Shown here piece after piece: positions 46,921 to 50,226 of a stretch of DNA of 64,000 nt (positions are counted from its first letter, which is position 1; the number at the start of each line of letters is the position of its first letter). A program made the translations under genes and the position numbers. This stretch comes from Agromyces allii. GTDB taxonomy: Bacteria > Actinomycetota > Actinomycetes > Actinomycetales > Microbacteriaceae. The notes beneath the pieces are model-generated. The model was given only the letters and a program-made list of their open reading frames with translations, was not told the DNA's origin and made no database searches. The stretch spans positions 243,581 to 307,580 of the forward strand of contig NZ_WBIN01000007.1 in assembly GCF_009749385.1 (NCBI RefSeq), in the 5' to 3' direction.

Positions 46921-49900
46921 ATGACCGACGTGCTGCGCGGCATCGACGCCGCCCAGCGTGACGAGGATGTCGCTCGAACCATCCGCCTGGAGCCCGACCC
47001 GTCCGTGCTGCGCGCGATCGGTCGCGGGCACTCGTTCGAGAGCGCGGCAGCGGATCTCATCGACAACAGCATCGACTTCGGCGCATCCCAGATCGTCGTT
47101 CAGCTCATGGTCGCGCAGGGCTTCCTTCGCCGGGTCCGCATCATCGACGACGCGGTCGGCATGAGCTTCAGCCAGCTGAACGACGCCATGACGCTCGGGA
47201 AGCGCCGCAAGTACGGCAAGACCGATCTCGGCCATTTCGGAATGGGCCTGAAGTCGGCGTCGATGAGTCAAGGCCGAATCCTCACGGTCTTCACCCGGTG
47301 TGGATTCGAACCGATGCACGCGATGCGGATGAAGCGCGACGATGCCGGAGGCGGCTTCGATGTGGAGGTGCTCACGGAATCCGCCGCGTGGCATGGTTCC
47401 CAACTCGGAAGCCGACCTGGCATCGACACCACGGGCACCGTCGTCGAGTGGTCCGCGCTCGACAACACCTCGAGCGCAGCTTTGCCATCGGCGCGACAAG
47501 CATGGCTCGACCAGACGATCACCCGACTCCGAGGAGAACTCGGACTGATCTTCCACCGTCTGCTCACCGAGCGTTCGGCCAGAATCGAGGTCGAGGTGTT
47601 CGACCTCGAGTACGAGGAGGCCGGCGCACCCCGAACCGTCGAAGCCGTCGATCCGTTCGACTTCCACATTTCCGGGCGTTCGGGCTATCCGCTCGCGATC
47701 GCCGCGAACCTCCCATCGGGTGGTGAAGTCATCGCCGACTGCCACATCCTTCCGCCGAACTCGCAGTCGGCTGCGGCACGTCTCCTCGGCCGTTCACGGA
47801 TCGACGGCCAAGGGTTCTACATCTACCGGAACTCGAGGCTGCTGCAAGCCGGCGGCTGGCTCGGCCTGCTCGATGACAAACGCGCGGACTTCCAGCTCGC
47901 ACGCATCGCGATCGATCTCGATGAAGCCGCGCTCGCGGCTGTCGCGATCAACCCCGAGAAACGGGGCGTCGTGCTGCGACCCGACTTCGTCAACGCCCTG
48001 GAGTCAGCGATCGACGGCGAGCACGGCACCGGGTTCCGTGCGTACCTCGATGCCGCACGCGACACGCTTCGAACCGCGAACGCGCGCCGTCTGGGCCCGA
48101 AGCCGCTCACCGCTCTTGCAGGTGGACTGCCCGACGCCGTTCGGGCAGCAGTCAACGAGGTCGTCGGTATCCGGCCGGATGTCATCCCCGCGCGTATCCG
48201 GTGGCGCGTTCTCGAGGAGGATCGCCTCTTCCGCTTCGACCACCTCGCACGAACCGTCTGGATGAACGCCGGATACCGCTCAGCACTCGCCGGCGCGGAT
48301 GCACTCGCGCTGGCGATCTACCTGCTCGTCGAGCAGCATTTCGCCAAGGAGCGCCCCCAACAGTCGACGATCGACCAGATCGAGACCTGGCAACGCGCGC
48401 TCGCTCTCACGCTTCTCGCCGAAATCGGCGTGAGCGCGTTCGACCCGGTCGCCGGCGAAACGGATGACGACGAGCTGGATTTGTTCGGCGAGCAGGAGCC
48501 CGATGCATCCACTGCGCCCGAAGCGCCGCCTTCGTCACCCTCGGCCTCGTCGCCGACATCACCCTCCCCCGCATCCGTCGCACGATCGATGGCAGAGCGA
48601 CAGGCGCGCGACGCCGCCATCGAACTCGAGCGTGCAGCCCGCCGCGAAGACGAGGAACGCGCACGAGAGGAGCGACGATCTCGGGACGCCGCGCGCGGGC
48701 AGCTCACCGATGCAGGCGAGCGCATGGAGATCCTCGCGGCGCTCCCCTCGATCGAAGACCCGCTGACCTACCTCCGCCGTGATCTCGATCGGTACCCGCT
48801 TCTGAACGCCGAAGACGAGGTGCGGCTCGCGAAGCAGATCGAGGCCGGCCTCATCGCGGGCGAACGACTTGAGCAGCGTGGCGACGACCTGGTAGATCGT
48901 CCCCTCGCGATGGAACTCCGACGCGTCGTCGAGGATGGGCGAGCCGCGCGCGACCACTTCATCGGCTCGAACATGCGGCTCGTCTTTTCAATCGCCGGCC
49001 GGTATCAAAGCCAAGGGCTGGAGTTCGCCGACCTCGTCCAAGAGGGTTCGGCCGGTCTGATCCGGGCCGTAGAAAAGTTCGACTTCATGCAGGGAAACAA
49101 GTTCTCGACCTACGCGACCTGGTGGATCCGTCAAGCGGTCACCAGAGCGATCGCCGATCGAGGTGCGACGATCAGGGTGCCGGTGCACATGGTCGAACAG
49201 ATCAGGCGGCTTCAGACCGTCGCTCGACAGATCGAAACGGAGCTCGGCAGGGCTGCATCCGACGCAGAGCTCATCCAACGGCTCGAGATCGACAGGTCCG
49301 ACCTCAAGTCGATCCGCGCGGCGATACACAGTTACGCCTCCCTCGACAGCGAGCTCGGCGAGGAGATCACCCTCGGCGACCTCCTCGTCGATGACACAGC
49401 CGTCGACCCCCTCGAATCGCTCGAATCCGCCGAGTTCGTCGGCCGGCTTGAGGATGCGCTCGACCAGCTCGGCGAACGTCCTTCGACGGTCCTCCGCCTG
49501 CGATACGGAATCGATGGGGAGGCGCCGCTCACCCTCGACCAGATCGGCGACCGGATGAACGTGACCCGCGAGCGGATCCGGCAGATCGAGAAGAAGGCCC
49601 TCGACGCCCTGCGTGAAGAGCCTCGGGCTGCCCGGCTCCGCGACTATCTCGGTCTCGAGCTCGATCGGATCGGAGTACGGACGCTTGATGCGCTGCAGCC
49701 GCCGTTCGTGGCCGGTCGCGGCGCCGGCGGAACACCGAGGGTCGTCATCCCGGCGGGCAAGATGCGAGACGACGGCGTGCCTGGATCTCTAAACGTGCCC
49801 GGCAGCGCCGATCCTGTCATTCTCACGCCGCCTACACCCCGGCAACGCGAACGCCCGAACGCTGAACAAGGCAGTGCACGCGACATCCTTCAGCGATATC

Positions 49901-50226
49901 GAAGCGGATCCACAGTCACGGCGATCGCGGCGGCCGTCGAACTCGATCCGCGGGCAGTGGCGATCACCCTTGCCGGAAACCTCTTCGACGTCGGCGACGA
50001 CGTGGACGATGCGGCGATGGCAGCCCGACACGGTCTGCCCTGGGATCCGACCGAACGCGAGCGAGTATTGGTCGCATATCGAAGCGGATCGACGATCGAC
50101 CGCATCGCCGCCGACCATGCAAGAACCCGACTCGCGATCGCATGGAGCCTGCTCGATAATCCGAAGCGACCGGTGCATGTGACCAAAGCCCACATGAAAA
50201 ACGCGCGTGCGTCGGAATTGCGATGA
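46921..50226 (+). CDS. MORC-type GHKL ATPase fused to a complete sigma-70 factor
   Basis: 1101 residues. Residues 1-505 are a MORC ATPase, paralogous along its length to 37247-38773: N box ADLIDNSIDFGASQI, G2 DLGHFGMGLKSASMSQ, but G1 reads IIDDAVGMS, lacking the first Gly. A Pro/Ser/acidic linker and a charged coiled coil span 505-610. Sigma region 1.2 is LTYLRRDLDRYPLLNAEDEV (about 614); region 2 runs from HFIGSNMRLVFSIAGRYQSQ to STYATWWIRQAVTRAIADRG (about 675-745); region 3 about 763-835; region 4.2 has MNVTRERIRQIEKKAL (about 883-898). Residues matching those that E. coli sigma70 uses for -10 (Q, T in WIRQAVTR) and -35 (RERIRQ) contacts are kept. Two HTH-like repeats with YRSGST end the chain (about 986-1080). 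The predicted role is an ATP/DNA-sensing transcription switch. Confidence 0.93.
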   Translation: MTDVLRGIDAAQRDEDVARTIRLEPDPSVLRAIGRGHSFESAAADLIDNSIDFGASQIVVQLMVAQGFLRRVRIIDDAVGMSFSQLNDAMTLGKRRKYGKTDLGHFGMGLKSASMSQGRILTVFTRCGFEPMHAMRMKRDDAGGGFDVEVLTESAAWHGSQLGSRPGIDTTGTVVEWSALDNTSSAALPSARQAWLDQTITRLRGELGLIFHRLLTERSARIEVEVFDLEYEEAGAPRTVEAVDPFDFHISGRSGYPLAIAANLPSGGEVIADCHILPPNSQSAAARLLGRSRIDGQGFYIYRNSRLLQAGGWLGLLDDKRADFQLARIAIDLDEAALAAVAINPEKRGVVLRPDFVNALESAIDGEHGTGFRAYLDAARDTLRTANARRLGPKPLTALAGGLPDAVRAAVNEVVGIRPDVIPARIRWRVLEEDRLFRFDHLARTVWMNAGYRSALAGADALALAIYLLVEQHFAKERPQQSTIDQIETWQRALALTLLAEIGVSAFDPVAGETDDDELDLFGEQEPDASTAPEAPPSSPSASSPTSPSPASVARSMAERQARDAAIELERAARREDEERAREERRSRDAARGQLTDAGERMEILAALPSIEDPLTYLRRDLDRYPLLNAEDEVRLAKQIEAGLIAGERLEQRGDDLVDRPLAMELRRVVEDGRAARDHFIGSNMRLVFSIAGRYQSQGLEFADLVQEGSAGLIRAVEKFDFMQGNKFSTYATWWIRQAVTRAIADRGATIRVPVHMVEQIRRLQTVARQIETELGRAASDAELIQRLEIDRSDLKSIRAAIHSYASLDSELGEEITLGDLLVDDTAVDPLESLESAEFVGRLEDALDQLGERPSTVLRLRYGIDGEAPLTLDQIGDRMNVTRERIRQIEKKALDALREEPRAARLRDYLGLELDRIGVRTLDALQPPFVAGRGAGGTPRVVIPAGKMRDDGVPGSLNVPGSADPVILTPPTPRQRERPNAEQGSARDILQRYRSGSTVTAIAAAVELDPRAVAITLAGNLFDVGDDVDDAAMAARHGLPWDPTERERVLVAYRSGSTIDRIAADHARTRLAIAWSLLDNPKRPVHVTKAHMKNARASELR

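Follow-up and report, generated by a model that had tools for sequence, protein, structure and literature searches.

In the 64,000-nucleotide (nt) stretch of the Agromyces allii genome analysed here (the window; contig NZ_WBIN01000007.1, positions 243,581 to 307,580), one open frame encodes a MORC-type GHKL ATPase fused to a sigma-70 factor and a C-terminal helix-turn-helix (HTH)-like domain (Table 1). The fusion is confirmed as a real single protein. An assembly artefact is ruled out by 79 other proteins with both halves among the best 120 of 3992 matches over threshold in a database search with the fusion, and a chance reading frame by the Pfam matches. The key residues of the MORC and sigma halves are strongly conserved, and binding of core polymerase is predicted from them. 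We tentatively suggest that the fusion would steer a DNA-cutting defence system to promoters of invading DNA.

One polypeptide with conserved MORC and sigma halves

The original prediction, made from the letters alone, described one continuous frame with a MORC ATPase and sigma regions 1.2, 2, 3 and 4. The open frame and Pfam matches at the predicted places bear this out; HATPase_c_3 covers residues 37-126 (E 1.6e-19, over the cut-off), and region 1.1 has no Pfam match in the protein. The C-terminal HTH-like domain was overlooked in that domain list; HTH_38 matches to it in relatives are below cut-off. The coiled coil proposed for the linker finds no support in a crude heptad count, the only basis used: the segment is acidic and Pro/Ser-rich, then charged. 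The open frame extends upstream as far as 45577. ATG 46921 is taken as the start because the hexamer TACGAT lies 7 nt upstream and relatives have about the same N-terminal length. By eye, 6/6 fusion-clade loci, the window included, have a TANNNT hexamer 6-7 nt upstream of the likely start.

In the ATPase half, the GHKL motif residues N49, D76, G80, M81, G104 and G109 (motifs N, G1 and G2) are present in 83/83 rows, as are G298, Y302, R303, R306 and the catalytic lysine K347. The S5 motif GhXhhpXXRhl, defined for MORC ATPases in PMC2292703, appears as GFYIYRNSRLL. D45, four residues before N49 (47053-47055), is Asp in 81/83 rows. MutL and MORC proteins usually carry Glu at this position, which we take to be that of the general base of the GHKL site. 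ATP turnover of the fusion may be slow owing to this Asp.

Sigma region 2 serves core binding, -10 recognition and melting, and region 4 recognizes the -35 element. With E. coli RpoD numbering (L047) and the roles that we assume for single RpoD residues, the -35 contacts R584, E585, R586, R588 and Q589 and the -10 positions Y430, W433, W434 and Q437 are kept in 80/80 fusions and F427 in 78/80; T440 is T in 57/78 and S in 13/78. Core-binding D403 and G408 are found in 78/78, Q406 in 77/78 and E407 in 76/78. The counts are made on 78 of the 80 fusions since the anchor pattern demands the -10 aromatics; the two left-out rows were read separately. Mean conservation is 1.0 for the -35 set, 0.965 for the -10 set and 0.859 for the core set, compared with 0.589 for all sigma columns; the anchor pattern partly favours the -10 set, not the -35 set. 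The promoter-contact segments are thus intact, as claimed, and their key residues strongly conserved across the fusions. The finger within region 3 (about residues 809-823, RpoD 508-522) is poorly conserved across the family (mean 0.374, with gappy columns and no control group of like divergence).

Origin and distribution of the fusion

The sigma half is likely captured from a primary sigma factor of actinobacteria, the exact source being unsure because of long branches. Its nearest PDB match is HrdB (SigA), with which regions 1.2-4 align end to end. A careful tree, built from 44 rows, nests the sigma halves carried by MORC and helicase proteins with SigA (support 99/99), which points to a primary sigma factor as the likely source; SigA is represented there by three rows, all from the window's genus. 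In a quick tree the MORC-, helicase- and DndB-sigma halves grouped apart from SigA and RpoD (Shimodaira-Hasegawa-like approximate likelihood ratio test 96). One sigma cassette shared by these three kinds of fusion is not upheld by the careful tree: it places three of four DndB-sigmas elsewhere, and the DndB cases are probably separate captures. Whether the MORC-sigma halves have a single origin is a borderline case (approximately unbiased test, p 0.048; long branches). Unlike SigA/HrdB, the window's sigma half is fused and fast-evolving, with a loose finger and no region 1.1 match. It scores below the RpoD/SigA equivalog cut-off (best 314.4 of 582 bits), and the genome holds 15 Sigma70_r2 matches, including a separate SigA on contig C14. 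Derivation from MzaA, the sigma factor of the MZA system (see below), is rejected, as the actinobacterial-type RpoD model scores higher (314.4 vs 283.8 bits) and the half nests with SigA.

The family comprises the first 84 of the best 120 matches, the window's protein included, and both domain sets are listed in 80 of them; sigma is absent from P0037, P0040 and P0084, and the MORC domain from P0080. Close relatives align over the whole length (P0003: 64% in MORC, 53% in sigma, 49% in the C-terminal domain). Named sources are Salinibacterium, Planctomonas, Leifsonia, Cryobacterium, Clavibacter, Microbacterium, Rathayibacter, Agromyces and Curtobacterium, three confirmed as Microbacteriaceae and the rest presumably so. 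The fusion is rare among sampled genomes. With at most four MORC candidates scored per genome, 13/398 genomes of the bacterial family have a MORC match (E<=1e-30); the sigma fusion is found in four of them (G000, the window's genome, G388, G204 and G109) and a fusion-clade MORC without sigma in two more (G284, and G151, whose protein P0123 has its N-terminus cut short by the gene call). Of another 398 relatives, a set that overlaps with the first, nine have a match; G000 and G109 carry the fusion. No relatives were found in viral contigs, 0/206 plasmid records with a match cover 80% of the fusion, and in a scan of genome contigs two Peregrinibacteria loci match the sigma half only.

A profile search over 87 rows, biased in that only proteins of at least 0.55 x query length were taken, gives 54 with sigma and the HTH-like domain, 27 with sigma only, 5 with HTH only and 1 with neither, the window's standalone MORC. 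All five sigma-less proteins keep the HTH-like domain (P0122 nearly duplicates P0084). The four sigma-less rows in the MORC tree fall at four separate places, so sigma has probably been lost several times, with repeated gain as the alternative. MORC and sigma distances are correlated (Mantel r 0.80, n=78, 0/1000 permutations as high), which indicates that the halves are inherited together.

Sigma factors are also fused to superfamily 2 (SF2) helicases (L038:1235-3772 (-), L053, L054; P0101, P0130-P0247) and to the DndB (DGQHR) domain (P0118, P0119, P0127, P0128, P0129). Sigma region 2 is listed in 112 of the best 120 matches to one XPB / dnd_restrict-like helicase-sigma protein, and the named sources among those listed are mostly Arthrobacter and relatives. 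As in MORC-sigma, a DNA-acting protein is joined to a sigma factor, and the conserved contacts are almost identical: the -35 residues are kept in 107-108/108 helicase-sigma and 4/4 DndB-sigma rows (108 of 122 and 4 of 5 counted, the rest being without the anchor pattern). Ten of the 14 left-out helicase rows have no complete sigma part in their listed Pfam domains. The other four (P0136, P0140, P0143, P0182) are full-length, with regions 2 and 4 and no -10 aromatic anchor, and the -10 aromatics are therefore not strictly conserved throughout this family. The N-terminal enzyme differs from that of MORC-sigma, and two of three helicase-sigma loci lie outside a recognisable defence island: judged by eye, a NERD/UvrD gene adjoins one locus, and the surroundings of the other two look ordinary.

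Known systems and the proposed role of sigma

The anti-phage system MZA (mzaABCDE) is attributed to Gao et al. 2020 in PMC9523054; its sigma factor MzaA and its MORC-type ATPase MzaB are separate proteins. By PADLOC and NCBIfam the N-terminal part of the fusion matches MzaB and the C-terminal part MzaA. In the window, unlike in MZA, the two are one polypeptide with MORC first, and there is also a DNA cytosine-5 methyltransferase (Dcm) as well as a second MORC. Membership in MZA proper is ruled out, as the equivalog cut-offs are missed by the fusion (MzaA 283.8 of 800, MzaB 130.2 of 850 bits) and by its neighbours (MzaC 291.6 of 1500, MzaD 76.1 of 420); Pfam and PADLOC scans of neighbouring genes give no match to AIPR/MzaE. 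The three core genes of a published system with DUF4420 (printed as DUF4220) are all present in the window. The available part of its description mentions a MORC-type protein as associated and an mzaA-like sigma factor in a few systems, but no MORC-sigma fusion. For prokaryotic MORC/paraMORC ATPases, DNA looping was proposed by Iyer et al. 2008 (PMC2292703). Like our locus, their operons combine GHKL+S5 and the MORC S5 motif with methylase and nuclease in a restriction setting, whereas a sigma factor is unmentioned in the excerpt. The claim that no such defence protein had been described is only partly borne out: the two parts are already known as separate proteins in MZA, and only their joining in one chain was not found in the literature searched.

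The MZA literature, as far as its excerpts go, offers no reason for the sigma factor. A natural MORC-sigma fusion suggests that sigma and the MORC ATPase work together as a single unit. The residues conserved in the sigma half offer a testable answer, promoter docking. We suggest, as a possible and tentative reading, promoter-guided restriction: the captured housekeeping sigma would be the aiming part, with promoter reading kept and the finger for making transcripts decayed, and the defence machine would be sent to early promoters of any invader. SF2 helicases and DndB would have captured sigmas likewise. If promoter-guided restriction is true, some bacteria direct restriction to promoters; this kind of targeting requires no guide RNA, and phages could hardly escape it without losing host transcription.

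Conditional transcription, in which ATP/DNA sensing by the MORC half switches sigma-driven expression, is the idea favoured in the original prediction; it seems rather unlikely to us. The intact promoter contacts would suit it, as would the -10-like hexamer in 6/6 fusion-clade loci and the gene order: Dcm comes next after the MORC gene with sigma/HTH in 5/6 loci, and this MORC gene never directly precedes PD-(D/E)XK, while plain MORC does so in 12/12. However, G284 has no sigma, yet the same locus layout, and the hexamer is kept in both sigma-less loci; expression therefore seems not to require sigma. In the intergenic regions, a crude scan for -35/-10 elements towards the divergent gene gives nothing beyond shuffles in 5/5 loci, and towards the fusion a weak signal only in G204 (11/300 shuffles) and the window (25/300). 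Moreover, SigA promoter specificity is retained, and such a switch should then also reach many housekeeping promoters.

Phage anti-sigma proteins usually target regions 2 and 4. The primary sigma factor of the host is bound by such proteins, AsiA being one example (PMC7824862), and the sigma half, with its long branches, evolves fast outside the contacts, as a bait surface for phage proteins targeting host sigma might. We find such a bait quite improbable: all five residues that contact -35 bases, together with most of the -10 pocket, persist in 80/80, which exceeds what a bait alone requires, and the core-binding residues are also nearly invariant. A mere spare DNA-binding domain, interchangeable with the HTH-like domain and making no polymerase contact, is very doubtful as well. 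It would fit the mixture of domain make-ups among the 87 rows and the sigma-related HTH reported inside DndH and BrxL (PMC10853773 and PMC12839542), but that count is biased by the length filter, the region 2.2 core-binding residues are kept, and regions 1.2, 2, 3 and 4 are all present, superfluous for a spare HTH.

Neighbouring genes and the defence island

The predicted restriction context is also found: methyltransferase, methylase and nuclease genes lie nearby, and the fusion sits in a larger island (Table 1). The 18-62 kb stretch of the window looks like one defence island. The divergent Hypoth_Ymh ATPase has a distant similarity, below cut-off, to BbrUII/HgiDII restriction enzymes. Its homologue in G109 lies between the fusion and the PD-(D/E)XK gene.

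Table 1. Features of the fusion gene and its surroundings in the window (positions in window coordinates)
Feature	Position	Strand	Remark
MORC ATPase - sigma-70 - HTH-like fusion, 1101 amino acids (aa)	46921..50226	+	one open frame
GHKL + S5 MORC ATPase module, residues 1-505	46921..48435	+	ATP motifs and MORC S5 motif kept
Linker, residues 506-613	48436..48759	+	
Sigma region 1.2, residues 620-643	48778..48849	+	Pfam Sigma70_r1_2, E 1.3e-6, over cut-off
Sigma region 2, residues 681-748	48961..49164	+	Pfam Sigma70_r2, E 4.6e-19, over cut-off
Sigma region 3, residues 759-833	49195..49419	+	Pfam Sigma70_r3, E 1.1e-9, over cut-off
Sigma region 4, residues 846-899	49456..49617	+	Pfam Sigma70_r4, E 1.1e-17, over cut-off
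C-terminal HTH-like domain, residues 988-1099	49882..50217	+	family hidden Markov model built for this analysis
TACGAT, -10-like hexamer	46908..46913	+	predicted leaderless-type promoter, by eye
Dcm, directly downstream of fusion	50287..51354	+	Pfam
TACACT before likely GTG start of Dcm	50274-50279	+	by eye; gene caller start 50266
NOV_C protein (PADLOC PDC-S36)	51351..52214	+	adjacent, outside conserved core
HEPN_Swt1 - DUF4011 - superfamily 1 helicase - restriction endonuclease protein (ProA / PDC-S37)	52432..58932	+	adjacent, outside conserved core
Second GHKL ATPase with Hypoth_Ymh domain	45133..46860	-	divergent from fusion
HmaB-like DUF1156 methylase	42177..44999	-	
HmaC-like / DUF499 ATPase	38773..42168	-	
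Standalone MORC ATPase (MzaB-like)	37247..38773	-	40% identical to fusion's MORC half
PD-(D/E)XK nuclease, DUF4420 (MzaD-like)	36283..37260	-	
Gene in fusion's locus	33278..36286	-	
Vsr mismatch endonuclease	32832..33215	-	

Further away, a complete ZacA, ZacB, ZacC candidate defence set is located at 25670-31819 (+), with PADLOC E from 1e-123 to 0. A Type IV methyl-directed restriction enzyme at 24631-25536 (-) belongs to the stretch 18100-25536 (-), which also holds a UvrD-like helicase and a 1044-aa protein without PADLOC match. On the other side, a 623-aa protein at 58955-60826 (-) has no Pfam domain and a weak NsnC match; relatives of this protein are found next to MORC loci as well, in G033 (47%) and G517 (30%).
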